DNA of 64,000 nt. It comes from Rhizobium leguminosarum bv. viciae USDA 2370 (GTDB taxonomy: Bacteria; Pseudomonadota; Alphaproteobacteria; Rhizobiales; Rhizobiaceae). Position numbers and translations under genes: made by a program. The stretch spans positions 164,035 through 228,034 of the forward strand of contig NZ_MRDL01000046.1 of the NCBI RefSeq assembly GCF_002008365.1, written 5' to 3'. The notes below the pieces were generated by a model. That model saw only the letters and a program-made list of their open reading frames with translations. It was not told where the DNA came from and made no database searches. Positions 1 through 24,986 of the stretch are shown here, piece after piece (position 1 is the stretch's first letter; each line of letters opens with the position of its first letter).

Positions 1-101
1 CCAAACTGCAAAACCTGCCGGAGAAAGCGCTCTACGGCTTCGATCCCACCTCCTATCTCGGCGTCTATATGCCGGATGCATTCTGGTATAAGGAGGCCTG
101 A
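1..101 (+). CDS. ABC transporter solute-binding protein, C-terminal end (partial)
   Basis: Only the last 32 codons are present, in the frame starting at base 3 and ending at TGA 99-101. The tail includes the stretch YGFDPTSYLGVYMPDAFWY. It lies 4 bases before the first permease start and on the same strand, so it is most likely the periplasmic substrate-binding subunit of the transporter encoded next. The fragment itself is too short for a family assignment; the call rests on position and on the usual order binding protein, permease, permease. The substrate cannot be inferred. Confidence 0.6.
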   Translation, partial: KLQNLPEKALYGFDPTSYLGVYMPDAFWYKEA

Positions 102-105
102 GGCC

Positions 106-1104
106 GTGCTCAGATATATTCTCTGGCGCATCGCCGCCATGGTGCCGACGCTCTTCGTCATTTCGGCGCTGGTCTTCACCATCATCGAGCTGCCGCCGGG
201 CGACTTCTTCGAGAGCCAGATCGCCGAGCTGCGTGCCTCCGGTGAGACCGCCAACCTTCAGGAAATCGAGGAGATGCGCCAGCAATACGGCTTCGACAAG
301 CCGGAGATCGTGCGCTATTTTTACTGGGTCGGCGGCATGCTGCACGGTGACTTCGGGTACTCCTTCGAATATCAGCTGCCGGTCTCCGACGTGGTCGGCG
401 ACCGCCTCTGGCTGACGATGCTCGTCTCCTTCACGACGATCCTGCTCACCTGGCTGATCGCATTTCCGATCGGCATCTATTCGGCCACGCACCAATACAG
501 CTGGGGTGACTACGGGCTGACGTTCCTCGGCCTGATGGGCATCGCCATTCCGAATTTCATGCTGGCTCTGATCCTGATGTATTTCGCCAATATCTGGTTC
601 GGCATCTCGATCGGGCACCTGATGGACCAGCAATATATCTCGGCGCCGATGAGCTGGGAGAAGGCACGATCGATCCTCTCTCACCTCTGGATCCCGGTCA
701 TCATCGTCGGCACGGCAGGCACGGCCGGCATGATCCGGCGGCTGCGCGCGAACCTGCTCGACGAGATGCAGAAGCAATATGTCGTCACCGCGCGCGCCAA
801 GGGCCTGCCGCCCCTCAAGGCGCTGCTAAAATACCCGCTGCGCATGGCGCTCAACTTCTTCGTCGCCGATATCGGCTCGATCCTTCCGTCGATCATCTCG
901 GGCGCCGAGATCGTCGCGATCGTGCTGTCGCTGGAGACGACGGGGCCGATGCTCATCAAGGCACTTCAGAGCCAGGACATGTATCTCGCCGGCTCCTTCC
1001 TGATGTTCCTGGCCTTCCTCAATGTCATCGGCGTGCTGATCTCAGACATCGCACTCGGCTTCCTTGATCCCCGCATCCGTCTGCAAGGCAGGAGCACCAA
1101 ATAA
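106..1104 (+). CDS. ABC transporter permease, DppB/YejB type
   Basis: Inner-membrane permease subunit of a peptide-family (dipeptide/oligopeptide/nickel, or in rhizobia sometimes oligosaccharide) ABC importer. The 332-residue protein starts with a membrane segment followed by a long periplasmic loop ending in HGDFGYSFEYQLPV, then five further hydrophobic segments, as in DppB. The cytoplasmic EAA-like loop is at VVTARAKGLPPLKALLKYPL. I chose GTG at 106 because AAGGAGG lies at 90-96 with good spacing; an upstream ATG at 76 is inside the binding-protein gene. It overlaps the next permease by one base (TAATG), so translation is probably coupled. No ATPase gene is present in the window for this transporter. 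Confidence 0.88.
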   Translation: MLRYILWRIAAMVPTLFVISALVFTIIELPPGDFFESQIAELRASGETANLQEIEEMRQQYGFDKPEIVRYFYWVGGMLHGDFGYSFEYQLPVSDVVGDRLWLTMLVSFTTILLTWLIAFPIGIYSATHQYSWGDYGLTFLGLMGIAIPNFMLALILMYFANIWFGISIGHLMDQQYISAPMSWEKARSILSHLWIPVIIVGTAGTAGMIRRLRANLLDEMQKQYVVTARAKGLPPLKALLKYPLRMALNFFVADIGSILPSIISGAEIVAIVLSLETTGPMLIKALQSQDMYLAGSFLMFLAFLNVIGVLISDIALGFLDPRIRLQGRSTK

Positions 1105-2276
1105 TGTCGCCCCTTCCCGCACCCGGCGCGCCGCTTGCGCATTACGTCTCGACCGCTCCTTTCGATCCGCACGCGACCGAAAGCATGACGGCAGCGCAAT
1201 CGCGCATCCATCTCGCCTCGCAAAAGCAGCTGATGTGGTGGAAGTTCAAGCAGCACAGGCTCGCTTTGATCTCCGGCATCTTTCTCGCCGCCGTCTACCT
1301 GATGATCCTGATCGTCGAGTTCCTGGCGCCCTACGGCCTGCACACGCGCAATGTCGATTTCATTCATGCACCGCCGCAGCGCGTCCACTTCTTCGACAAG
1401 GGCAGCTTCGTCGGTCCCTTCGTCTACGGCCGGAGCATGACGCTCGATATCGACACGCTCCACCGGGTCTATACCGACAAGAAGAATGACGTGCAGCCGA
1501 TTCGTTTCTTCTGCCGCGGCGATGGCTATAAATTCTGGGGCTTTGTCGCCTCGAACTATCATCTTGTCTGCCCGGCGATCGGCGGGCAGATGTTCCTGCT
1601 CGGCACCGACCGGCTCGGCCGCGACGTGCTGTCGCGCATCCTTTACGGCGCGCGGATATCGCTGACGATCGGTCTGATTGGCATTTCGATCAGCTTCGTG
1701 CTCGGCATCATCATCGGCGGCCTTGCCGGTTATCGCGGCGGCATTTTCGATCTCATCGTCCAGCGCCTGATCGAAGTGCTGCAATCGCTGCCGAGCCTGC
1801 CGCTCTGGATGGCGCTGGCAGCCATCATGCCGGTGACGTGGAGCCCGATCGTCATCTATTTCGGCATCACCGTCATCCTCGGCATCATCGACTGGACGGG
1901 GCTGGCGCGTGCCGTGCGCTCCAAACTCCTGGCGCTGCGTGAGGAGGATTATGTCCAGGCCGCACAGCTGATGGGCGCCAGCACGCCGCGCATCATCGGC
2001 CGACATCTGGTGCCGGGCTTCATGTCGCATCTCATCGCTTCGGCGACGATTTCCATCCCCGGCATGATCCTTGGAGAGACCGCGCTCTCCTTCCTAGGCC
2101 TCGGCCTTCGTCCGCCGATCACCAGCTGGGGCATTCTGCTGACCGAGGCAAAAAGCGTCAGCGTCATCGCCTTCTATCCATGGCTGCTCTATCCGATCAT
2201 TCCTGTTGTTCTTGTCATTTTGGCGTTCAACTTTCTGGGAGACGGCTTGCGTGATGCGGCAGATCCCTACAAATAG
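1104..2276 (+). CDS. ABC transporter permease, DppC/YejE type
   Basis: Second permease subunit (390 residues) of the same importer. The order is an N-terminal cytoplasmic stretch, a first membrane segment around residues 50-72, a long periplasmic region of about 90 residues containing the typical LLGTDRLGRDVLSRILYGAR sequence just before the transmembrane core, then five membrane segments. The EAA loop is near DYVQAAQLMGASTPRIIGRH. The ATG overlaps the stop codon of the first permease. The extended periplasmic loop between the first segment and the core resembles YejE-like permeases more than short DppC forms. The ATPase partner is not downstream (a glycosyltransferase follows after about 95 bp), so it must lie before the window or elsewhere. 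Confidence 0.88.
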   Translation: MSPLPAPGAPLAHYVSTAPFDPHATESMTAAQSRIHLASQKQLMWWKFKQHRLALISGIFLAAVYLMILIVEFLAPYGLHTRNVDFIHAPPQRVHFFDKGSFVGPFVYGRSMTLDIDTLHRVYTDKKNDVQPIRFFCRGDGYKFWGFVASNYHLVCPAIGGQMFLLGTDRLGRDVLSRILYGARISLTIGLIGISISFVLGIIIGGLAGYRGGIFDLIVQRLIEVLQSLPSLPLWMALAAIMPVTWSPIVIYFGITVILGIIDWTGLARAVRSKLLALREEDYVQAAQLMGASTPRIIGRHLVPGFMSHLIASATISIPGMILGETALSFLGLGLRPPITSWGILLTEAKSVSVIAFYPWLLYPIIPVVLVILAFNFLGDGLRDAADPYK

Positions 2277-2372
2277 CAGGAAATGCGGCGGTACGTCACG
2301 GCACCGCCCCCTCCTCTTGGCCTCCCGACGGTGGGGGCACTAAGTATGTCGCTCACCCCAGAAGGGATGCCC

Positions 2373-3581
2373 ATGTCCAGACGTCTCGAAGATGCGCGCA
2401 TCCTCATGTACAGCCACGACACCTTCGGTCTCGGCCATCTGCGCCGCTGTCGCGCCATCGCCCATGCGCTGGTGGAGGATTATCGCGGCCTCAACATTCT
2501 GATCATTTCGGGTGCCACGATCGCCGGCGCCTTCGACTACCGCGCCCGCGTCGACTTCGTGAAGATCCCGAGCGTCATCAAGCTGCGCAACGGCGAATAT
2601 ACGTCGCTTGCCAGCCATATCGACCTGCACGAGACGTTGAAGATGCGCGAGTCGAGCATTCGCCACACGGCCGAGACCTTCCAGCCAGATATCTTCATCG
2701 TCGACAAGGAACCGATGGGGCTGAAGGGCGAGGTCGAGGATACGTTGGCTTATCTCAAGGCTCGCGGTACCGTCCTGGTGCTCGGCCTGCGCGAGATCAT
2801 GGACGCGCCGCATCTGCTCGAGGCCGAGTGGAAGAAGAACAGCATCATGCAGAAGATCGACCAATATTACGACAGCGTCTGGGTCTATGGTCCGCCGGAT
2901 TTCTACGATCCGCTGATCGGCCTCGACGTGCCGGCCAGCCTGCGCCGGAAGATGGATTTCGTCGGCTTCCTGCAGCGCAGCGTCTCCAGGGGAAAGACCT
3001 CAATCAACGCCCGCAAGGATAATTACATCCTCGTCACGACTGGTGGTGGCGGCGACGGCTCCGATCTCGTCCACGACGTCATGAACGCCTACGAGGCCGA
3101 CCCGACGCTGACGCAGAAGGCGCTCGTCGTGCTCGGTCCCTATATGCCGGCCGCCGAGCGGGCCAAGCTGGTGCAGAAGGGAGAAGCGATCCCCTATATC
3201 GAGGTGATCGAGTTCGACAACCACATGGAAGAGCTGATCGACAGCGCCACCGGCGTCGTCGCCATGGGCGGCTACAACACCTATTGCGAGATCCTCTCCT
3301 TCGACAAGCCGGCCCTCATCGTGCCGCGCGTCAAGCCACGCGAGGAACAACTGCTGCGCGCCCAGCGGGCAAGCGAGCTCGGCCTCGTCGACATGCTGCT
3401 GCCGGATCAGTCGGTCGACCCCACCATCATGGCCGAAGCGCTGAAGCGCCTGCCCTTCCGCCAGCCGCCGTCGAAGAGCGGCGGCAATATGCGTCTCGAA
3501 GGGCTGGACCATATCTCGCAGACCGTCGGCCGGTGGATCGACGGCCGCGGCAGCCACCTTTCCCTCGTCGGCGCGGAATAG
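2373..3581 (+). CDS. predicted glycosyltransferase, MurG-like (COG4671 type)
   Basis: 402-residue soluble GT-B-fold glycosyltransferase. The N-terminus carries MYSHDTFGLGHLRRCRAIAH, the glycine/histidine signature of the MurG-like 'predicted glycosyltransferase' group. The C-terminal domain has VATGGGGDGSDL-like nucleotide-sugar loop residues (LVTTGGGGDGSDLV) and GGYNTYCEI, where MurG-like enzymes hold the sugar nucleotide. I start at ATG 2373, preceded by GAAGGG at 2361-2366; an ATG at 2346 and an open frame to 2283 also exist. It is the first of three consecutive glycosyltransferase genes and is followed 9 bp later by a GT4 enzyme. Donor and acceptor are unknown. It is a distant paralogue of the third gene of the set. 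Confidence 0.85.
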   Translation: MSRRLEDARILMYSHDTFGLGHLRRCRAIAHALVEDYRGLNILIISGATIAGAFDYRARVDFVKIPSVIKLRNGEYTSLASHIDLHETLKMRESSIRHTAETFQPDIFIVDKEPMGLKGEVEDTLAYLKARGTVLVLGLREIMDAPHLLEAEWKKNSIMQKIDQYYDSVWVYGPPDFYDPLIGLDVPASLRRKMDFVGFLQRSVSRGKTSINARKDNYILVTTGGGGDGSDLVHDVMNAYEADPTLTQKALVVLGPYMPAAERAKLVQKGEAIPYIEVIEFDNHMEELIDSATGVVAMGGYNTYCEILSFDKPALIVPRVKPREEQLLRAQRASELGLVDMLLPDQSVDPTIMAEALKRLPFRQPPSKSGGNMRLEGLDHISQTVGRWIDGRGSHLSLVGAE

Positions 3582-3590
3582 GGCACAGCC

Positions 3591-4838
3591 TTGCCGCAAC
3601 GCCGCAAGATCCTCGTTGTGCTGAAGGGCTATCCCCGCCTTTCGGAAACCTTCATCGCCCAGGAGCTGCTCGGCCTCGAAAAGGCCGGCTTCGACCTCAC
3701 GCTGATTTCGATGCGCCGGCCGACCGACAAGAAGCGCCATCCCGTGCATGACGAGATCCGGGCGCGTGTCGTCTATCTGCCGGAATATCTACACGAAGAG
3801 CCAATCCGCGTGCTGAAAGGCCTGGCCGCCGGTTTCTCCAAACCCGGCTTCAAGACGCTGATGAAACGCTTCCTCGCCGACCTCAAGCGCGACCTCTCCC
3901 GCAACCGTTTGCGCCGTCTCGGCCAGGCACTGGTGCTGGGGCGTGAATGGCCGGACGAGGGCGAATGGCTGCATGCCCATTTCATCCACACGCCGGCCTC
4001 GGTGACGGAATATGCGAGCATCCTCACGGACACCCCCTGGACCTGCTCGGCGCACGCCAAGGACATTTGGACGTCGCCCGACTGGGAGCTGAACGAGAAA
4101 CTCGGCAGCGCCCGCTGGACCGTCACCTGCACCAGGACGGGCTATGAACACATGCGGACGCTGACATCACGCAAAGAGACCGTGCACTTGAGTTACCACG
4201 GTCTCGATCTTGCCCGTTTCGGCCATTTTGCCGGCGAGCGCTCGGACCGGACCGGGAGCGATCCCGACGATCCGGCCTTCATCCTCAGCGTCGGCCGCGC
4301 CGTCGAGAAAAAGGGTTACGACGTGCTGCTGCGGGCGCTGGCACTGCTACCTGCCGATCTTAACTGGCGCATGGACCATATCGGCGGCGGCGAGGAGCTT
4401 GGGAAACTGAAGGCGCTGGCCACGGAACTCGGCATTTCCCCTCGCATCGTCTGGAAGGGCGCCATGGCACAGGAAGACGTGCTCGATCATTACCGCCGCG
4501 CCGACCTCTTCGCACTTGCCTGCCGCATCGCCGCCAACGGCGACCGCGACGGCCTGCCGAACGTCCTGGTCGAGGCATCGAGCCAGCGGCTCGTCTGCCT
4601 CTCGACCGAAGTATCCGGGGTGCCTGAGCTCCTGAAGAACGGTGAAAACGGCCTCGTCGTGCCGCCGGAGGACCCGGCGCTGCTGGCCAGAGCGCTGGAG
4701 GCGGCAATCCGCGACCCAGCACTGCGCAAGCGTCTCGGCGACGCAGCCGAAAACCAGGTGCGCGAACATTTCGACTATCACTCCAGCATCAGACAGCTCA
4801 CCGGCCTGTTCGAGGCCGAATGGCAGAAGGCGTCATGA
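3591..4838 (+). CDS. glycosyltransferase family 4
   Basis: 415-residue GT4 (retaining, GT-B fold) glycosyltransferase. The N-terminal half begins with LKGYPRLSETFIAQELLGLE, typical of colanic-acid/exopolysaccharide GT4 enzymes. The C-terminal half has SVGRAVEKKGYDVLL and the nucleotide-sugar site EASSQRLVCLSTEVSGVPEL, followed by NGLVVPPEDP. The frame begins at TTG 3591, ten bases after the preceding stop; no better start is visible. The 3' end overlaps the third glycosyltransferase (ATGA), so the three genes are almost certainly one transcript. Probably cytoplasmic, adding a hexose to a lipid-linked or soluble acceptor. Substrate unknown. Confidence 0.88.
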   Translation: MPQRRKILVVLKGYPRLSETFIAQELLGLEKAGFDLTLISMRRPTDKKRHPVHDEIRARVVYLPEYLHEEPIRVLKGLAAGFSKPGFKTLMKRFLADLKRDLSRNRLRRLGQALVLGREWPDEGEWLHAHFIHTPASVTEYASILTDTPWTCSAHAKDIWTSPDWELNEKLGSARWTVTCTRTGYEHMRTLTSRKETVHLSYHGLDLARFGHFAGERSDRTGSDPDDPAFILSVGRAVEKKGYDVLLRALALLPADLNWRMDHIGGGEELGKLKALATELGISPRIVWKGAMAQEDVLDHYRRADLFALACRIAANGDRDGLPNVLVEASSQRLVCLSTEVSGVPELLKNGENGLVVPPEDPALLARALEAAIRDPALRKRLGDAAENQVREHFDYHSSIRQLTGLFEAEWQKAS

Positions 4839-5980
4839 CGGCACCGCGCATTTTCTTCTACGTCCAGCACCTGCTCGGCATCGGCCACATAGCCCGCGCC
4901 AGCCGCATCGCCAATGCACTGGTGAAGGACGGTTTTGACGTGACTGTCGTGACCGGCGGCCTGCCTGTGCCGGGCTTTCCGGGCGAGGGTATAAAGACCG
5001 TAGCTTTGCCGGCGGTCGTTGCCAGCAATGCCGGTTTTTCCGGCCTCGCCGATGCCGATGGTCGGCCAGCGGGCGGGGATTTCCTCAATGCCCGCCGCGC
5101 GCTGCTTCTCGATGCCTTCCATGCCGCGAGGCCCGATGTCGTCATCATCGAAGCCTTCCCCTTCGGACGGCGACAGATGCGCTTCGAACTACTACCCTTG
5201 CTCGAGGCGATCGAAAAGGCCGAACCTCGGCCGAAACTCCTAAGCTCGGTGCGCGACATCCTGCAGGAAAACCGCAAGGCAGGCCGCGACGCGGAGACCG
5301 CCAAGCTGGTCAAGGATCATTTCGATGCCGTGCTCGTCCACGGCGATCCCGATTTCATCAGGCTCGAGGACACCTTCCCGCTGACATCCGAGATCGCCGA
5401 CAGGCTGCGTTATACCGGCCTCGTCGCACCACCGCCGGCGCCGGAACCGACCGAGACATTCGACATCATCGCATCGGCGGGCGGCGGCGCGGTCGGTGCT
5501 GCACTGATCGGCGCGGCCAAAGAGGCAGCAGCGCTGCTACCCGCCGATCTTCGCTGGCTGCTGATATCAGGCCCGAACCTGCCGGAGGCCGATTTCGCCG
5601 CGCTGTCTGAGGATGCCGCCCCGAATGTGACGCTGGTGCGCTTCCGCAAGGATTTTCCCTCTCTGCTGCGCGGCGCGAAAGTGTCGATTTCGCAGGCAGG
5701 CTACAATACGGTCGGCGATCTCTTGCGCACCGAGTGCCGGGCGATCCTCATCCCCTTCGTCGCCGACGGCGAAACCGAGCAGACGGTGCGCGCCGAACGG
5801 CTGCAGGCGCTCGGCCTTGCCGACATCCTGCCGGAAAAGGGACTGACGTCGGGCCATGTTAGGGAGGCCGTCGAAAAGGCGCTCGCGGCACAGCTAAGGG
5901 GGCCGGTCTTGCTCGATCTCGCCGGAGCGGAGAAAACCGCCGCCATCATTCGCTCCATGATTGCCGAATCCCTCGCCTAA
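4835..5980 (+). CDS. predicted glycosyltransferase, MurG-like
   Basis: 381-residue MurG-like glycosyltransferase. The N-terminus has YVQHLLGIGHIARASRIAN, parallel to the GLGHLRRCRAIAH element of the first gene in the set. The C-terminal domain has IIASAGGGAVGAAL and SISQAGYNTVGDLL, the nucleotide-binding loops, and ILIPFVADGETEQTVRAERL near the end. I start at ATG 4835, which overlaps the stop of the GT4 gene (ATGA) and has AGAAGG at 4824-4829; an in-frame ATG at 4820 is less likely. This layout (two MurG-like enzymes flanking a GT4) suggests sequential assembly of one short glycan. A 182-bp gap separates it from the degenerate ABC gene downstream. Confidence 0.85.
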   Translation: MTAPRIFFYVQHLLGIGHIARASRIANALVKDGFDVTVVTGGLPVPGFPGEGIKTVALPAVVASNAGFSGLADADGRPAGGDFLNARRALLLDAFHAARPDVVIIEAFPFGRRQMRFELLPLLEAIEKAEPRPKLLSSVRDILQENRKAGRDAETAKLVKDHFDAVLVHGDPDFIRLEDTFPLTSEIADRLRYTGLVAPPPAPEPTETFDIIASAGGGAVGAALIGAAKEAAALLPADLRWLLISGPNLPEADFAALSEDAAPNVTLVRFRKDFPSLLRGAKVSISQAGYNTVGDLLRTECRAILIPFVADGETEQTVRAERLQALGLADILPEKGLTSGHVREAVEKALAAQLRGPVLLDLAGAEKTAAIIRSMIAESLA

Positions 5981-6162: not shown

Positions 6163-8877
6163 ATGGAAAAAAGCCTCGCCCGCTACATCTGGAAGAACAC
6201 GCGGCTGCAGCAGCTGTGGATTCTGGCTGTCGTCGCCGCCTCGATGGTGCCCTACTTCCTGTCCTTCGACCTGCCGAAGCAGATCGTCAACGGACCGATT
6301 CAGGGTGACGGCTTCGAAGGTCCGGGCGCAAGGCAGACCTTCATGCATATTGCCTATGACATCCCGCTGATCGGCCATGTCGAATTCTTCCAAGGGTTGC
6401 AGCTCAATCGTTTCCAGATGTTGATGGCCCTCAGCCTGGTGTTTCTGGCGCTGGTGGTGCTGAACGGCCTCTTCAAGTTCTACATCAACACCTATAAAGG
6501 CCGGCTCGGCGAGCGCATGCTGCGCCGTATCCGCTTCGAGCTGATCGACCGGGTGCTGCGTTTTCCGCCCATCCACTTCAAGCGGGTAAAATCGGCCGAA
6601 ATCGCCACCATGATCAAGGACGAGGTGGAGCCGATGGGCGGCTTCACCGGCGATGCCTTCGTCTCCCCTGCCCTTCTTGGCGGCCAGGCGATCACGGCGC
6701 TCGCCTTCATCATCGTGCAGAATTTCTGGCTCGGAATGATCGCCGCCGGCATCGTCGGCGTACAGGCGGTCGTCATTCCCCGCATGCGCAAGCGCCTGCT
6801 GGACCTCGGCCGCCAGCGGCAGCTGACGGCGCGCGAGCTCTCCGGCCGCGTTGGCGAAATCGTCGACGGCATCGGCACGATCCACGGCAACGACACATCG
6901 AACCTCGAACGCGCCGACATCGCCTCGCGGCTCGGCCGGATCTTCTCGATCCGCTACGATCTTTACCAGTGGAAGTTCCTGGTGAAATTCATCAACAACT
7001 TCCTCGCCCAGGTCACGCCGTTCCTGTTTTACGCGATCGGCGGCTACCTGGCGCTGCAGGGCCGGCTCGACATCGGCCAGCTCGTCGCCGTCATATCAGC
7101 CTACAAGGACCTGCCCGGGCCGCTGAAGGAACTGATCGACTGGGACCAGATGCGCCAGGACGTGCAGGTGAAGTACCAGCAGGTCTACGAGCAGTTCAAT
7201 GTCGAGCCGCTAATCGACAGCCGTATCCAGGAACTCGCGATTGCCCCGGTCGGGGCGCTGACGAGCGCGCTCGTCGTCACCAATCTGTCGCTCTCCGACG
7301 ACAGCGGCGCCCGCCTCGTCGATCACGTCTCCGTCGAGATCAAGCCGAACGAGACGGTGGCGATCGTCGGGCCGAACGGCAGCGGCGCGGAAGCCTTCGC
7401 CGAAGCGCTCGGCCGCATGGTCTGGCCGGACTCCGGCCGCATCACCATCGACGGGCGCGATCTCCTGGACCTGCCGGAATCGATTACCGGCCGGCGGATC
7501 TCCTATGCCTCGGCCGACACCTTCTTCTTCCACGGCACGCTGGCCAGCAATCTGCTCTACGGCCTCAAACATGCGCCGATGACCGATCCCGTTTACGACG
7601 AGCGGGAAGCGCTGGAGTACAAATGGCATTCCGCCGAGGCAGAGAAGGCCGGCAATCCGACGCTCGACCTCAACAGCGACTGGGTGGACTACAAGGCCGC
7701 CGGCGCCAGCGGGCCCGAGGACCTGCTGAAAGCGATCCGCCCGGTGCTCGACGCCGTCCTCATCTCACAGGACATCCTCGATCTGGCGCTGCGCTCGACC
7801 GTCAATACCGATGTGCATGTGGCAGTCAGCAACCACGTCGTGGCGCTCCGCGCCTCGCTGCGCGACCGGCTGCGCGACGAGGGGCTCGACACGATCGTCG
7901 TGCCTTTCGATTTCGACGCCTACAACGCCCAGGCGACGGTTGGCGAGAATTTGCTCTTCGGCACGATGAAGCGGCCTTTGATGACCAATCGGAGGCTTGC
8001 CGCGCATCCCTATTTCCAGGAGCTCTTCCGTGAAACCGGCCTCAGCACGGATCTCTACGCCATGGGCCTCGAGATCGCCGAGAACGCGGTGGAACTCTTC
8101 CACGACCTGCCGCCGGACCATCCTTTCTTCCAGCAGCTGACCTTCATGACGGCGGACGACATTCCGACCTACCAGGCGCTGCTGCAGAAGCTGCAAAGCC
8201 GCCGCTTCGAGGACGCCACGCCTGAGGAACGTTCGGCTATCATCCGGCTGAGTTTTGCCTATATCGAGCCGCGCCATCGCTTCGGCTTGCTGACGAACGA
8301 GCTCATGGACAAGATCGTCAACGCCCGCAAGCAGTTCCACGAGCATATTCCGGCCGATCTCGCCGAGCTGATCGAGCGCTACGATGCCGAGCGTTTCACC
8401 CCGTCGGCAAGCCTGATGGACAATGTGCTCTTCGGTCGTATCGCCTATCAGCAAGCCGACGCCTCCGACCGCATCCGCGGCATCATGGGCGAACTCTTCG
8501 ATGCGCTCGACCTTTATGACGACGTGCTGTCGATCGGCCTCGAATTCGACGTCGGCTCCGGCGGCAAGCGACTGACCATGGTGCAGCGGCAGAAGCTGAA
8601 CCTGGCCCGCGCGCTGTTGAAGCGCTCGGACTATTTCATCTTCAACCGGCCACTGTCGGCGCTCGACCAGCGGGTTCAGGATCGGATTACCCGCAATATC
8701 ATCGAGGATTTGCATGAGGAAGGCCATCGGCCGGCGATCATCTGGGTGCTCTCCAACGCCCGGCAGGCCGAGATGTTCGACCGGATCCTGCTCTTCGACC
8801 GCGGCGGATTGGCGGAGGCTGGAAACTATCCGGAACTTTCCGAGAAAAACGGGATGTTCAAGGAACTGTTATCGTAA
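6163..8877 (+). CDS. ABC exporter-like protein with enlarged, catalytically degenerate nucleotide-binding domain
   Basis: 904 residues. Residues 1-360 form an exporter-type transmembrane domain (segments near 20-35, 85-105, 185-230 and 290-315). The rest is ABC-like but about 540 residues instead of ~240, and its motifs are altered. Walker A is GPNGSGAE (residues 403-410), with Ala409 where Lys belongs. The Q-loop Gln is Ala451. The signature is LTMVQ (804-808) instead of LSGGQ. Walker B ends FNRP with Asn828 and Arg829 for Asp and Glu. The H-loop His is absent (VLSNAR). The D-loop SALD is intact. About 250 extra residues between Q-loop and signature contain two more copies of the Q-loop-following motif (SNLLYG 462, ENLLFG 595, DNVLFG 753). 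Canonical ATP hydrolysis looks impossible. One uninterrupted frame, so not a pseudogene. Confidence 0.85.
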   Translation: MEKSLARYIWKNTRLQQLWILAVVAASMVPYFLSFDLPKQIVNGPIQGDGFEGPGARQTFMHIAYDIPLIGHVEFFQGLQLNRFQMLMALSLVFLALVVLNGLFKFYINTYKGRLGERMLRRIRFELIDRVLRFPPIHFKRVKSAEIATMIKDEVEPMGGFTGDAFVSPALLGGQAITALAFIIVQNFWLGMIAAGIVGVQAVVIPRMRKRLLDLGRQRQLTARELSGRVGEIVDGIGTIHGNDTSNLERADIASRLGRIFSIRYDLYQWKFLVKFINNFLAQVTPFLFYAIGGYLALQGRLDIGQLVAVISAYKDLPGPLKELIDWDQMRQDVQVKYQQVYEQFNVEPLIDSRIQELAIAPVGALTSALVVTNLSLSDDSGARLVDHVSVEIKPNETVAIVGPNGSGAEAFAEALGRMVWPDSGRITIDGRDLLDLPESITGRRISYASADTFFFHGTLASNLLYGLKHAPMTDPVYDEREALEYKWHSAEAEKAGNPTLDLNSDWVDYKAAGASGPEDLLKAIRPVLDAVLISQDILDLALRSTVNTDVHVAVSNHVVALRASLRDRLRDEGLDTIVVPFDFDAYNAQATVGENLLFGTMKRPLMTNRRLAAHPYFQELFRETGLSTDLYAMGLEIAENAVELFHDLPPDHPFFQQLTFMTADDIPTYQALLQKLQSRRFEDATPEERSAIIRLSFAYIEPRHRFGLLTNELMDKIVNARKQFHEHIPADLAELIERYDAERFTPSASLMDNVLFGRIAYQQADASDRIRGIMGELFDALDLYDDVLSIGLEFDVGSGGKRLTMVQRQKLNLARALLKRSDYFIFNRPLSALDQRVQDRITRNIIEDLHEEGHRPAIIWVLSNARQAEMFDRILLFDRGGLAEAGNYPELSEKNGMFKELLS

Positions 8878-8979: not shown

Positions 8980-9447
8980 ATGCTGTTGAGAGACGAAGTC
9001 GAAATGCTGCGACGGGTGCCGATCTTTTCAAGGATCGCGCCAGCAAAGCTCAAGCTTTTGGCCTTTACCTCCGATCGCATGACCTACAAGGCCGGACAGG
9101 ATCTCTTCCATCAGGGCGATGTCGGTGACGCCGCCTATGTCATCCTCTCGGGTACCGCCGATATCGTCGTCTCCTCGCCGGCGGGCGAGATCAAGGTCGC
9201 CGATGTCGAACCCAATTCGATCGTCGGCGAAATCGCCATTCTCTGCGATGTCTCGCGCACGGCAACGGTGCGCGCCACCTCGCCGCTCGAAGTGCTGCGC
9301 ATCAGCAAGGAGCACTTCCTGAAGCTGCTCAGCGACTTCCCCGAGATGGCTGTGGAAATCATGCGGGTTCTGGCGGACCGCCTGAACCACACCACCGCGG
9401 AGCTGACCGCAGCCCGGGCGGCGAAACAGCCGCAGATGGCGCAGTAG
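8980..9447 (+). CDS. stand-alone cyclic-nucleotide-binding domain protein
   Basis: 155-residue cytoplasmic protein consisting of one CAP/CRP-type cyclic-nucleotide-binding domain (about residues 10-135) with no DNA-binding helix-turn-helix. The phosphate-binding cassette region reads SIVGEIAILCDVSRTATVRA, matching the family pattern G-E-[IL]-A followed by R-[ST]-A-[ST]-V. An early DLFHQGDVGDAAYVILSGTA matches the beta-roll. The C-terminal helix ends in an Ala/Lys/Gln-rich tail. It lies 102 bp after the degenerate ABC protein on the same strand. I infer a regulatory partner for that protein or the glycosyltransferases; whether it binds cAMP, cGMP or c-di-GMP cannot be read from sequence. Confidence 0.85.
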   Translation: MLLRDEVEMLRRVPIFSRIAPAKLKLLAFTSDRMTYKAGQDLFHQGDVGDAAYVILSGTADIVVSSPAGEIKVADVEPNSIVGEIAILCDVSRTATVRATSPLEVLRISKEHFLKLLSDFPEMAVEIMRVLADRLNHTTAELTAARAAKQPQMAQ

Positions 9448-21142: not shown

Positions 21143-22996
21143 GTGAGCAGCGATGCGTTAACACGCGCGACGAAGCCTTCGGCTTCGATGGCGCTTGCAA
21201 CTGCGGCAGGCTGGGGCCGAGGCCTCTACACATTGGTGCGCATCACCATGATGGCCTTCCGCCACCCCTGGCAATCGGGCTTCGCGATCGGCGCCACGCT
21301 TGTCGCCTCCACCTTCCAGTTGATGATCCCGCGCCTTCTCGGCCAGGCCGTCGACCACACGCAGATGGCGATGAGCGGCGGTGCGGCGGGTCAGGCGGCA
21401 CAGGACGCGCTTTTGACCACGGCATTGCTGCTGCTTGGCGCCAGCGTGCTGCGCGGCCTCTTCACTATGGTCCAGAACTATTACAGCGAAGCCGTCGGCC
21501 ATCACATCGGCTATGAGTTGCGGCTGGCCTGCTACGAGAAGATCCAGCGGCTCTCCTTCAGCTTTCATGACACCGTTCATTCCGGCGACCTGATCACCGT
21601 CGGACTCCTCGATCTCGAAGGCGTGCGCATGTATTTTTCCACCGCGCTCGTCCGGATGATCCTGCTGTCGATCCTGATCGGTATCGGCGCCTATATGCTG
21701 CTGTCGACCGATATCGTGCTCGGCCTCCTGGCGCTGAGTTTCGTTCCCTTCGTCGGCTGGCGCTCCTCGGTGACGCAACTGCGGCTACGCGCCACCTGGC
21801 TCGACCTGCAGGAGCGGCTTTCGGTGCTGACCCGCATCATGGAGGAAAATCTCGGCGGTATCCGCGTCGTGCGCGCCTTTGCCGCCCACCAACACGAGAT
21901 TTCGAAATTTGAGGCAGCGTCGAAAAGCGCGCTGGCGCTCGCGCATCAGCGCGTCGGCATCCGCGTCACCAATACCAGCGCCATGACCTTCTCCTTCTTC
22001 GCTGCGATGGGCCTGGTGCTCTGGGTCGGCGGCGGCAAGGTGATGTCGGGCGAGATCACCGTCGGTACGTTGGCCTCGTTTCTGACCTTCATGACCATCC
22101 TGCAGATGCCGGTGCGCCAGCTCGGTCTGATGGTCAACGCCTTTGCCCGCGCCTCCACATGCGGCTCACGCCTCTTTGCCCTTCTCGACCTCGACATCGC
22201 GATCAAGGATGCGCCGGATGCGAAGGAGCTGAACCTCACCGACGGCGTGCTGCGCTTCGAAAACGTCAGCTTCGCCTATCCGGGTTCCGAAAAGCGCACC
22301 GTGCTCCAGGATGTCTCCTTCGAAGCCCGGCGCGGCCAGACGATCGGCATCGTCGGGCCTCCGGGCAGCGGCAAGTCGACGATCGCGCATCTGATCCCAC
22401 GCTTCTACGATGTCAGCGGCGGTAAGATCACGATCGACGGCCAGGACATCCGCAAGGCGACGCTGCAATCGCTGCGCCGGGCCGTGGCCGTCGTCCAGCA
22501 GGATTCCTTCCTGTTCACCACGACGATCGAAAACAACATCGCCTATGGCGACCCGTGGGCGAAGGAAGGCCGCATCGAGCGCGCCAGCGAAAGCGCCCAG
22601 TTGCACAATTACGTGCTCGGCCTTCCCACCGGTTATGGCACTGTCGTCGGCGAGCGCGGCGTTTCGCTTTCCGGCGGCCAGCGGCAGCGTCTTTCGATCG
22701 CCCGCGCGCTGATGTTGAAACCGGCAGTGATGGTATTCGACGATTCGACGGCAGCGATCGATGCGGCCACCGAGCAGCGCATCCGCAGCGCCATGCGCCG
22801 CTATGCCGCTGACCGCGTAACGATCATCGTTGCCCACCGCCTGAGCTCGCTGATGCATGCCGACCAGATCCTGTTCGTCGAAGACGGCCGGATCGTCGAG
22901 CGCGGCACGCATGCGGCGCTGCTTTCGCTCGGCGGGCGCTACAAGGCGCTCTACGACCTTCAGGTGCGGCCCGGCGACGAGGCGCCGAGCGCCTAG
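21143..22996 (+). CDS. half-size ABC exporter, subunit with degenerate Walker B (heterodimer partner 1)
   Basis: 617 residues: six-segment exporter membrane domain (about 25-320) then an ATPase domain. Motifs: Walker A GPPGSGKST, Q-loop VQQDSFLF, signature LSGGQRQRL, Walker B VMVFDDSTAAID in which Asp replaces the catalytic Glu, and H-loop IVAHRLSS. The length fits the GTG start at 21143; an in-frame ATG at 21086 and an open frame to 20975 are alternatives without good ribosome sites. A second half transporter follows after 91 bp, with an intact catalytic Glu but an altered signature. The two together look like a heterodimeric exporter with one degenerate site (as in TM287/288 or BmrCD). Substrate unknown, possibly lipid or drug. 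Confidence 0.88.
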   Translation: MSSDALTRATKPSASMALATAAGWGRGLYTLVRITMMAFRHPWQSGFAIGATLVASTFQLMIPRLLGQAVDHTQMAMSGGAAGQAAQDALLTTALLLLGASVLRGLFTMVQNYYSEAVGHHIGYELRLACYEKIQRLSFSFHDTVHSGDLITVGLLDLEGVRMYFSTALVRMILLSILIGIGAYMLLSTDIVLGLLALSFVPFVGWRSSVTQLRLRATWLDLQERLSVLTRIMEENLGGIRVVRAFAAHQHEISKFEAASKSALALAHQRVGIRVTNTSAMTFSFFAAMGLVLWVGGGKVMSGEITVGTLASFLTFMTILQMPVRQLGLMVNAFARASTCGSRLFALLDLDIAIKDAPDAKELNLTDGVLRFENVSFAYPGSEKRTVLQDVSFEARRGQTIGIVGPPGSGKSTIAHLIPRFYDVSGGKITIDGQDIRKATLQSLRRAVAVVQQDSFLFTTTIENNIAYGDPWAKEGRIERASESAQLHNYVLGLPTGYGTVVGERGVSLSGGQRQRLSIARALMLKPAVMVFDDSTAAIDAATEQRIRSAMRRYAADRVTIIVAHRLSSLMHADQILFVEDGRIVERGTHAALLSLGGRYKALYDLQVRPGDEAPSA

Positions 22997-23087
22997 CAAA
23001 CGGGTATGTTCCCCTCTGCTCCCAAGTGGAGAGGAACGAGTATTGACTATGCAGGCCACCGGAAGTGATGGCCGCGGGAGGAATGAC

Positions 23088-24986
23088 ATGGCCGAGGAAC
23101 TGGAAACCGAGCGCCCCGACGTTCGCGAGGATGGACGCCGCCCGCCACGGGCGGTGGTCGGTTCGCATCGCGTCGAGGAGGAGATGTTCGGCAAGGCCTT
23201 CGACGGCAACATCGTCAAGCGCATCTGGATTTTCGTCCACCCCTATCGCCGTCAGGTCCTCTGGTCCGTCGTCGCCGTTCTGACCTTCACGATGATGCAG
23301 CTCACCATCCCGCTGATCATCCGCTATGCCATCGACCACGGCATGTCGCCGGGCGGCAACCATTCGGCACTGGCCTGGTCGATCGCCGCGTTCACTGTTG
23401 CCATCCTCATCAACTATGCGGCAAGCTACGCGCAGGAAACGCTGGTCGGCGGCGTGGCGGAAGATGTGCTCTTCGATATCCGCAAGGCGATGTTTTCGCA
23501 TCTCCAGCGCGTTTCGCTCTCCTTCATGGATAAGACGGAGGTCGGCCGGCTGATGTCGCGCCTGCAAGGCGACGTCAACTCGATGCAGGAATTTCTCGAA
23601 ACCTCGGTACTGTCAGTCGGCGACATCGTGCTGCTCTTCGGCATCATTTTCGTGATGCTCTATCTCGATTTCAAGCTGGGGCTGCTGACGCTCTCGGTGC
23701 TGCCGGTGCTCTTCATCGTCCGGCTGTTCTGGCTGCCGCTCGCCCGCAAATCCTTCATGGCGGCGCACGAGACCAATTCGATTGCCGCCGGCGCGCTCGC
23801 CGAAGCGATCCACGGCGTGCGTGCCGTCCAGAGCATGGACAGGCAGGGCGTCAACTTCACGCTCTACGACGACAAGGCGCGTGCCAACCTCAAGACGCAT
23901 TTGACGGCGGCGCGCTATGCGCAGGTTATGGTGCCGATCGTCGACAGTCTGACCGGCGTGGCGATGGCGCTCGTCGTCGTCGTCGGCGGCGCCCGCGTTC
24001 TCAACCAGGCGCTCGATGTCGGCGTGCTCGTCGCCTTCCTGTTCTACATTCAGCGCTTCTTCGACCCAATCCGTTCGCTGACACTGCAATATTCGGTGAT
24101 GCAGCGTGCCATGGCTTCCGGCCAGCGGCTGACCGAAGTGCTCGACGTGCCTGTCGACATCAAGGATGCGCCTGGTGCCACGGCGCTATCGCGCGACATG
24201 GACGGCTCGGTGGAATTCAAGGACGTCGTCTTTGGCTACAATCCGAAGCATCCGGTGCTGAAGCATGTCAGCTTCAAGGTCAATCCCGGCGAGACGGTGG
24301 CGCTGGTCGGGCCGACGGGGTCCGGCAAATCGAGCTGCATGTCGCTGATCCATCGCTTTTACGATGTACAGCAAGGCCAGGTGCTGGTTGGCGGCCACGA
24401 TGTGCGCGCACTGACGCAGGATTCGCTCGGTGCACAGATCGCCATGGTGCTGCAGGAGCCCTTCCTCTTTACCGGGACCGTTTTCGAGAACATCCGCTAC
24501 CACAAGCTGGAGGCGACGCGCGAACAGGTGATCGAGGCGGCCAAAGCCGTCGGCGCGCACGACTTCATCATGCGTCTGCCGGAGGGTTACGATAGCGTTC
24601 TCGGCGAGCGCGGCGGCAATCTTTCGCTCGGCCAGCGCCAGCTTTTGAGCTTTGCTCGTGCGCTGGTGGCGGACGCGAAGATCCTCGTGCTCGACGAAGC
24701 GACCGCCAATATCGACAGCTATACCGAGATGCTGATCCAGAAGGCACTGGTAAAGCTGCTCGAAAACCGCACCGGCCTCGTCATCGCCCACCGGCTTGCG
24801 ACGATCCGCGAGGCAGACCGCATCATCGTGCTGCAGAACGGCGAAATCATCGAAAGCGGCGACCACCGTCAGCTGATGAAGAACGGCAAGCTCTACTCCA
24901 AGCTCTATAACCTCAATTACGCCTCCTTCGACGATATTCCCGAAGAGGTGCTGGAAGACACGACGGCGACGCAATCTGCGACCTAG
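23088..24986 (+). CDS. half-size ABC exporter, subunit with intact catalytic Glu (heterodimer partner 2)
   Basis: 632 residues: N-terminal cytoplasmic stretch of about 45 residues, six-segment membrane domain (about 50-345), then ATPase. Walker A GPTGSGKSS, Q-loop LQEPFLF, Walker B ILVLDEATANID with the catalytic Glu, H-loop VIAHRLAT. The signature is LSLGQ rather than LSGGQ. I start at ATG 23088 with GGGAGGA at 23076-23082; an ATG at 23049 is possible. The first 190 bases of the open frame overlap the preceding gene and are not used. The stop codon lies inside the start of a dispersed repeat. The signature change complements the Asp-for-Glu change in partner 1, so both changes map to the same composite ATP site. 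Confidence 0.9.
   Translation: MAEELETERPDVREDGRRPPRAVVGSHRVEEEMFGKAFDGNIVKRIWIFVHPYRRQVLWSVVAVLTFTMMQLTIPLIIRYAIDHGMSPGGNHSALAWSIAAFTVAILINYAASYAQETLVGGVAEDVLFDIRKAMFSHLQRVSLSFMDKTEVGRLMSRLQGDVNSMQEFLETSVLSVGDIVLLFGIIFVMLYLDFKLGLLTLSVLPVLFIVRLFWLPLARKSFMAAHETNSIAAGALAEAIHGVRAVQSMDRQGVNFTLYDDKARANLKTHLTAARYAQVMVPIVDSLTGVAMALVVVVGGARVLNQALDVGVLVAFLFYIQRFFDPIRSLTLQYSVMQRAMASGQRLTEVLDVPVDIKDAPGATALSRDMDGSVEFKDVVFGYNPKHPVLKHVSFKVNPGETVALVGPTGSGKSSCMSLIHRFYDVQQGQVLVGGHDVRALTQDSLGAQIAMVLQEPFLFTGTVFENIRYHKLEATREQVIEAAKAVGAHDFIMRLPEGYDSVLGERGGNLSLGQRQLLSFARALVADAKILVLDEATANIDSYTEMLIQKALVKLLENRTGLVIAHRLATIREADRIIVLQNGEIIESGDHRQLMKNGKLYSKLYNLNYASFDDIPEEVLEDTTATQSAT

Follow-up and report, generated by a model that had tools for sequence, protein, structure and literature searches.

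The window analysed here, a 64,000-nucleotide stretch of the genome of Rhizobium leguminosarum bv. viciae USDA 2370, encodes a degenerate ATP-binding cassette (ABC) exporter that we term pABC (pseudo-ABC). The protein belongs to a family in which the ATPase motifs are lost throughout, in which the nucleotide-binding domain (NBD) carries a large insert of repeat origin, and which is under purifying selection. Its gene is almost always adjacent or fused to a sequence for a cyclic-nucleotide-binding (CNB) domain, and about half of the long loci have a glycan-gene context. We tentatively read pABC as an ATPase-dead ABC exporter that is controlled by its CNB partner and forms the signal-controlled membrane part of a surface-glycan pathway. 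The insert and the links to a cyclase and to a surface-polysaccharide cluster go beyond the original prediction for this gene, which was made from the window sequence and whose interpretation is partly supported.

Domain organization and loss of the ATP-site motifs

pABC is a genuine open reading frame (ORF) of 904 residues with the following features.

6163-8877, forward strand: degenerate ABC exporter pABC (ORF, Pfam, family searches, model)
6163-7197, forward strand: membrane domain, residues 1-345 (ABC_membrane at 87-312; predicted β-strands at 58-81; model)
7198-7611, forward strand: first part of the NBD, residues 346-483 (Pfam, PDB sequence matches, fold match)
7369-7392, forward strand: degenerate Walker A, GPNGSGAE, residues 403-410 (sequence, alignment)
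7513-7515, forward strand: Q-loop position 451, Ala (sequence, alignment)
8515-8874, forward strand: second part of the NBD, residues 785-904 (PDB sequence matches, fold match)
8572-8586, forward strand: degenerate signature, LTMVQ, residues 804-808 (sequence, alignment)
8632-8649, forward strand: degenerate Walker B, ending in Asn828/Arg829 (sequence, alignment)
8656-8667, forward strand: D-loop SALD, kept, residues 832-835 (sequence, alignment)

Two Pfam domains, the sole ones above cut-off in the whole protein, define its architecture. ABC_membrane (PF00664; residues 87-312, 57.1 bits against a cut-off of 28) marks an exporter-type membrane domain, and ABC_tran (PF00005; residues 387-480, 51.6 bits against a cut-off of 25) matches the front part of the NBD alone. 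The best NCBIfam match is MsbA_lipidA, at 183.1 bits against a cut-off of 602. The ATP site is degraded at five motifs: Ala409 and Glu410 stand in place of the Lys and Ser/Thr of the Walker A consensus GK[ST], the Q-loop Gln is Ala451, the signature reads LTMVQ instead of the canonical LSGGQ, the Walker B Asp/Glu pair is Asn828/Arg829 and the H-loop (WVLSNAR) has no His. The original prediction had described the 904-residue frame, all five losses and the preserved D-loop, and was correct in each respect. Judged from its sequence, pABC is an ABC exporter by descent that lacks the motifs of an ABC ATPase, and its ability to hydrolyse ATP has most likely been lost.

R. leguminosarum plasmids match the first 10,000 bases of the window at 100.0% identity. 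One such 100%-identical plasmid has pABC annotated as 'ABC transporter ATP-binding protein'; in the plasmids inspected, pABC-type genes are annotated as ordinary ABC transporter proteins or left unannotated.

Family distribution and selection

Homologues of pABC were found in all of the 36 other genomes searched within the genus (E 1e-100; one split across two contigs) and in eight of 24 genomes from other families of the order at the same threshold. At E 1e-60 the class yielded 129 of 385 genomes (own genome counted), with mostly full-length matches and some in pieces. Homologues were present in 27 of 398 genomes sampled across the phylum, every one inside the class, and a profile of the insert described below matched 31 of these 398, again all within the class and each in an open frame of at least 863 residues. 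No relative was found outside the class in this phylum sample, other phyla not having been searched, and of 41 viral pattern matches none was confirmed. Among the named Rhizobiales loci, which are the best 80 of 545 confirmed places with stretches reaching 10 kb to each side, the members come from Rhizobium, Sinorhizobium/Ensifer, Agrobacterium, Brucella, Mesorhizobium, Phyllobacterium and others; plasmid-borne members also occur in Methylobacterium, Azospirillum, Ruegeria and Sulfitobacter.

Motif states were counted in a set of 108 members, that of the window included, made non-redundant at 85% identity. Homologues with intact motifs at the same positions, which the original prediction had said would point to strain-specific mutation, were looked for; no member has an intact set, and the most that any member keeps is four of the six features scored. 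The Walker A Lys409 is present in 40 members, Ser/Thr410 in 12 and both in five. The Q-loop Gln451 is kept in 17 members, and the Walker B residues Asp828 and Glu829 in 18 and 36, respectively (both in five). His at position 864 in the H-loop occurs in 19 members and a Ser-Gly-Gly signature in none. The D-loop Asp835 is kept in 89.

On a FastTree phylogeny built with the motif columns removed, from which the direction of change was not inferred, the minimal numbers of state changes are 11 for Lys409, seven for Ser/Thr410, 11 for Gln451, 11 for Asp828 and 13 for Glu829; the mostly kept Asp835 also shows ten. As read from these sequences, the repeated changes in the residual motif states would fit catalysis being unconstrained.

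The protein as a whole is under constraint. Pairwise ratios of nonsynonymous to synonymous substitution rates (dN/dS) against five Rhizobiales relatives are 0.06-0.11 for the whole protein; the membrane domain taken separately gives 0.03-0.07 and the Walker A half 0.10-0.30. Some of these ratios are rough, with dS values above 1. Since similar losses run throughout the family and purifying selection acts on it, the motif loss goes beyond chance. Selection for a non-ATPase role, as originally predicted, is well supported by the absence of an intact motif set and by the low dN/dS; the argument that five losses in one long frame mean selection reached the right conclusion, which the family data carry and a single sequence does not. 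A pseudogene or a sequencing error is ruled out by the family-wide conservation and dN/dS, and a strain-specific mutation by the same or similar motif states in the aligned rows from the genus.

Isolated broken copies do occur: one class genome (G270) has a stop inside the match, and the record of Sinorhizobium meliloti 1021 is frame-broken. Comparison of S. meliloti 1021 (L228, pSymB 818000-864000) with strain 2011 (L229) showed two single-base indels, one each in the cyclase and pABC stretches, which are otherwise identical. The reading frames of both genes are broken in the 1021 record and unbroken in 2011. The breaks may be sequencing errors or real, and could have hidden the gene.

The insert in the NBD

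A PDB sequence search matched exporter NBDs to pABC in two separate blocks, residues 378-486 and 784-902, and therefore some 300 residues are inserted between the Q-loop and the signature. The original description of the frame as otherwise intact consequently does not hold for the NBD, which is split.

7612-8514, forward strand: insert, residues 484-784, 301 residues (PDB sequence matches, alignment)
7513-7797, forward strand: copy 1, helical-subdomain segment, about residues 451-545 (profile comparison)
7840-8073, forward strand: copy 2, residues 560-637 (hhalign to copy 3, 98.6%; second run 99.2-99.3%)
8317-8544, forward strand: copy 3, residues 719-794, continuing towards the signature (profile comparison)

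The insert is 291-305 residues long across 54 aligned rows, window included. Copy 1 is the ordinary stretch from the Q-loop to the helical subdomain, and copies 2 and 3 are further tandem copies of it. Profile-profile probabilities were 99% between copies 2 and 3 and 95-96% when either was paired with copy 1, while eight control segments all remained below 6%; a first run gave 93.7-98.8% for longer windows and 82-92% with copy 1 shortened to 61 residues. When four canonical exporters were combined into a small profile, copy 1 matched it at 96.6%, with weak values for copy 2 (19%) and copy 3 (66%). The insert is best explained as an internal triplication of the helical-subdomain segment, with two extra copies. 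A foreign domain is rejected on the profile comparison, which shows repeats of the NBD's own segment. No Pfam match was obtained for the insert at E 10 (the HMMER filters drop weak matches), nor any match in the PDB at E 0.001 when the insert was modelled alone and searched with Foldseek. VIA-align gave weak rows for it (best Z 4.8, 2.7 Å, 71 residues), among which several ABC exporter helical regions are mixed with unrelated rows.

An AlphaFold2 model of pABC built from 58 sequences has a mean predicted local distance difference test (pLDDT) score of 82.4 and a predicted template modelling (pTM) score of 0.77, with low confidence at residues 154-172 and 318-339. Each of the three copies shows one pattern in the model: a short strand, a helix, a short strand and helices. 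Residues 363-904 align with the ComA NBD in VIA-align (Z 27.6, 2.2 Å, 240 of 240 residues), and in the model a complete NBD fold closes around the insert.

A diverged group occurs in the same order (L213-L217). In the three members checked (L213, L215 and L217), the insert and the NBD part that follows it are recognizable (286-291 bits) but the membrane domain is barely so (at most 2.4 bits).

The cyclic-nucleotide-binding partner

Directly downstream of pABC lies the gene for the CNB protein.

8980-9447, forward strand: 155-residue CNB protein (PF00027, 1.6e-21; adjacency and fusion in the family)
9226-9270, forward strand: phosphate-binding cassette GEIAILCDVSRTATV of the CNB protein (conserved Gly/Glu/Arg, 102 rows)

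The original prediction had proposed this neighbour as a partner and candidate gate, and the linkage proved to be strong. Among 107 pABC homologues, 12 carry the CNB domain as a C-terminal fusion and 88 have it encoded by the next gene downstream on the same strand, giving 100 that are adjacent or fused. A downstream same-strand CNB gene is present in all of the 80 named Rhizobiales loci, at a gap of 26-323 bases. The phosphate cassette keeps its Gly in 102, its Glu in 95 and its Arg in 101 of 102 rows (window included). Directly after the Arg stands a Thr in 86 of the 102 rows, a feature known from cGMP-binding kinases and taken here as a lead. Some database records label the CNB protein Crp/Fnr; Pfam found no DNA-binding helix-turn-helix domain in the 155 residues, cNMP_binding being the sole domain. 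One genome (G214) has three family members (L081, L082 and L218), each with a fused CNB domain.

Genomic context

The order in the USDA 2370 genome is cyclase, OppDF-type ATPase, substrate-binding protein, two permeases, three glycosyltransferases, pABC and CNB. The cyclase and OppDF-type ATPase genes are outside the window, upstream of its start, and only about the last 100 bases of the binding-protein gene fall within it. The remaining genes before pABC are as follows; the Opp-type label of both permeases is one that we take from the families of their neighbours.

76-1104, forward strand: Opp-type permease, oppB-like (ORF; 'ABC transporter permease' in a 100%-identical plasmid)
1104-2276, forward strand: Opp-type permease, oppC-like (ORF; 'ABC transporter permease' in a 100%-identical plasmid)
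2283-3581, forward strand: glycosyltransferase GT28a, GT28-like (Pfam; frequent neighbour)
3591-4838, forward strand: glycosyltransferase, GT4-like (Pfam; frequent neighbour)
4820-5980, forward strand: glycosyltransferase GT28b, GT28-like (Pfam; frequent neighbour)

Among the 61 non-redundant loci that span 14 kb or more, 33 have matching glycosyltransferases, 28 have Opp-type parts and 11 have a class III cyclase scoring 150 bits or more. The corresponding figures for the 80 named loci (the best 80 of 545 confirmed places) are 63 for glycosyltransferases and 19 for the cyclase at the same score. In five loci, L142 (Agrobacterium vitis), L143 (Allorhizobium), L144, L145 and L147, the cyclase gene stands directly upstream of the pABC-CNB pair, with no glycosyltransferases in the stretch. 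The class III cyclase upstream of the operon (L107:8773-10185) keeps its metal Asp residues and Asn/Arg, and a DUF3095 protein is encoded near it (L107:5834-7060). The glycan cluster in other Alphaproteobacteria (L067-L106) adds a histidine phosphatase, a second GT4, a Methyltransf_17 gene, a deacetylase-like protein and a small protein that looks membrane-bound.

The same gene order is found on pSymB of S. meliloti 1021, with the pABC gene at 841.7-844.4 kb. There the run is preceded by a second GT4, a deacetylase-like gene, DUF3095 (which thus occurs in this cluster too) and the cyclase; the deacetylase-like protein has no Pfam match. In strain R14 the successive genes are pABC, CNB, an FkbM gene and a LacI regulator. 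SM_b21272 is a LacI regulator according to the excerpt of PMC11387232, and counting back from it would make pABC about SMb21269 and GT28a SMb21265. The phazolicin-protecting polysaccharide (PPP) cluster of S. meliloti spans smb21252-smb21271 according to the part consulted of PMC10128002, and by this inferred mapping the pABC neighbourhood very likely corresponds to it. Excerpts of two further papers report that seven of the nine genes linked to the PPP cluster are up-regulated under predation (PMC10315480) and that R. leguminosarum pRL110056, termed an O-antigen gene, matters for root colonization (PMC11103875); that pRL110056 belongs to the pABC cluster is a guess from its gene number.

Proposed function and alternatives

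Gene linkage and fusion suggest that the CNB protein may control pABC. In the mechanism that we propose, pABC, probably as a homodimer, would be a membrane component of a surface-glycan pathway and work under signal control. The class III cyclase would make a cyclic nucleotide, to be bound by the CNB protein sitting on the C-terminal side of the NBD (to which it is covalently attached in some relatives). The ligand-bound CNB protein would then shift the NBD/membrane-domain pair, and this shift would switch the path of a glycan precursor, as the presumed substrate, or the glycosyltransferases at the membrane. What we infer from this arrangement is that a cyclic nucleotide would control some membrane step in the synthesis of surface glycans. 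In working ABC exporters the helical subdomain adjoins the membrane domain. It is possible, although we regard this more specific version as doubtful, that throughout the family the CNB domain, whether fused or separately encoded, replaces ATP binding as the switch that moves the NBDs, that the tripled helical subdomain forms a new lever on the membrane domain and that a cyclic nucleotide controls the surface-polysaccharide pathway in this way.

ATP-driven motion is the defining feature of ABC exporters. If the proposal is true, this widespread family, which would then combine an inactive ATP site with an enlarged subdomain for coupling and a linked second-messenger receptor, would show ways of driving or using the fold without ATP. 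Cyclic-nucleotide action on surface polysaccharide would also gain a concrete, testable target, in a polymer that shields rhizobia from a peptide antibiotic and may play a part in root colonization.

Several observations weigh against this proposal. Neither the cyclase (11 of 61 long loci) nor the glycosyltransferases (33 of 61) are obligatory next door; the missing genes may be more distant or located in another part of the genome. In the cyclase, the position of the Lys that usually selects the purine is occupied by Ser in 21 of 25 aligned rows (and by Lys in two), so that the product, if any, is uncertain. The match to the PPP cluster was made by counting along the gene numbers, starting at the LacI gene SM_b21272. 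A CNB domain was not found in the stretch searched for seven of the 107 homologues, three of which had only about 1.5 kb of downstream sequence, the other four being from the diverged group (L213-L217). The Walker A Lys is followed by Glu/Asp in 31 of the 108 members, and GK[ST] occurs in five; relatives that keep this Lys may bind some nucleotide.

One alternative, which we consider unlikely, is that pABC is the degenerate half of a heterodimeric exporter, with an ordinary half-exporter encoded elsewhere supplying the ATPase. Heterodimeric exporters in which a single site is degenerate have been described (PMC7756269, in part), other exporter-like frames are present in the genome, and the fold neighbours of the pABC model include TmrAB, TM287/288 and BmrCD, as for any ABC exporter. 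However, ATP stays bound at degenerate sites according to the same excerpt, whereas pABC lacks the Walker A Lys, the Q-loop Gln and the signature. The conserved neighbours include no canonical exporter, unlinked partners not having been searched for. The canonical 596-residue exporter encoded upstream in the window strain is ruled out as a conserved partner, being a neighbour in none of the 61 long loci at 150 bits (one match reached 148).

An ATP-independent transporter running on an ion gradient, by analogy with SbmA/BacA, would have the NBD as a structural remnant modulated by the CNB protein, and seems about as improbable. SbmA/BacA have an exporter-like membrane domain without an ATPase and no NBD. 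Such a role would accord with the constraint on the membrane domain of pABC, which has the lowest dN in all five comparisons (the lowest dN/dS in three of them) and which, with 345 of the 904 residues, accounts for 34 of the 58 columns that are invariant in alignment A1. The NBD fold, however, is present in pABC and, like the insert, conserved.

Least probable is a non-transporting scaffold or receptor that would assemble the glycosyltransferases, by analogy with SUR, an ABC protein with a channel-regulating role: the fold matches include SUR chains, which any ABC exporter would be expected to hit, and glycosyltransferase genes are frequent neighbours, but 28 of the 61 long loci have no matching glycosyltransferase in the fetched stretch.

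Comparison with known systems

pABC has the membrane domain (PF00664) and NBD fold (PF00005) in common with the MsbA/ABCB-type homodimeric exporters, and differs from them in its lost ATPase motifs, the insert of about 300 residues and the CNB partner. Exporters with one degenerate ATP site have likewise lost catalytic residues in an NBD but keep one canonical site (PMC7756269, in part), whereas pABC encodes no intact site. S. meliloti MsbA2 (SMb21191) is, like pABC, an exporter-family protein encoded on pSymB with glycosyltransferase neighbours, at a different locus: its operon starts at about 938 kb in the excerpt of PMC3687685, compared with 841.7 kb for pABC. Identity of pABC with msbA2 is ruled out by this position and by the lack of a pABC match at E 1e-20 in pSymB 930-950 kb.

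HetC of Nostoc resembles the fused pABC proteins in having a CNB domain attached to an ABC exporter. In HetC, unlike in pABC, the CNB domain is N-terminal, ppGpp binding is reported, and there are a peptidase domain and an essential catalytic ATPase residue (excerpt of PMC10986499); a Pfam scan of the 904 residues of pABC found no peptidase domain. The PPP cluster is very likely the same cluster as the pABC neighbourhood, and the part of PMC10128002 consulted mentions no inactive exporter or CNB pair. No description of a pABC-like family was found in searches of open-licence PMC papers, subscription papers and supplements being outside this scope.

Elsewhere in the window, a tandem pair of ABC exporter-like frames (684 and 710 residues) is located at 21410-24902.

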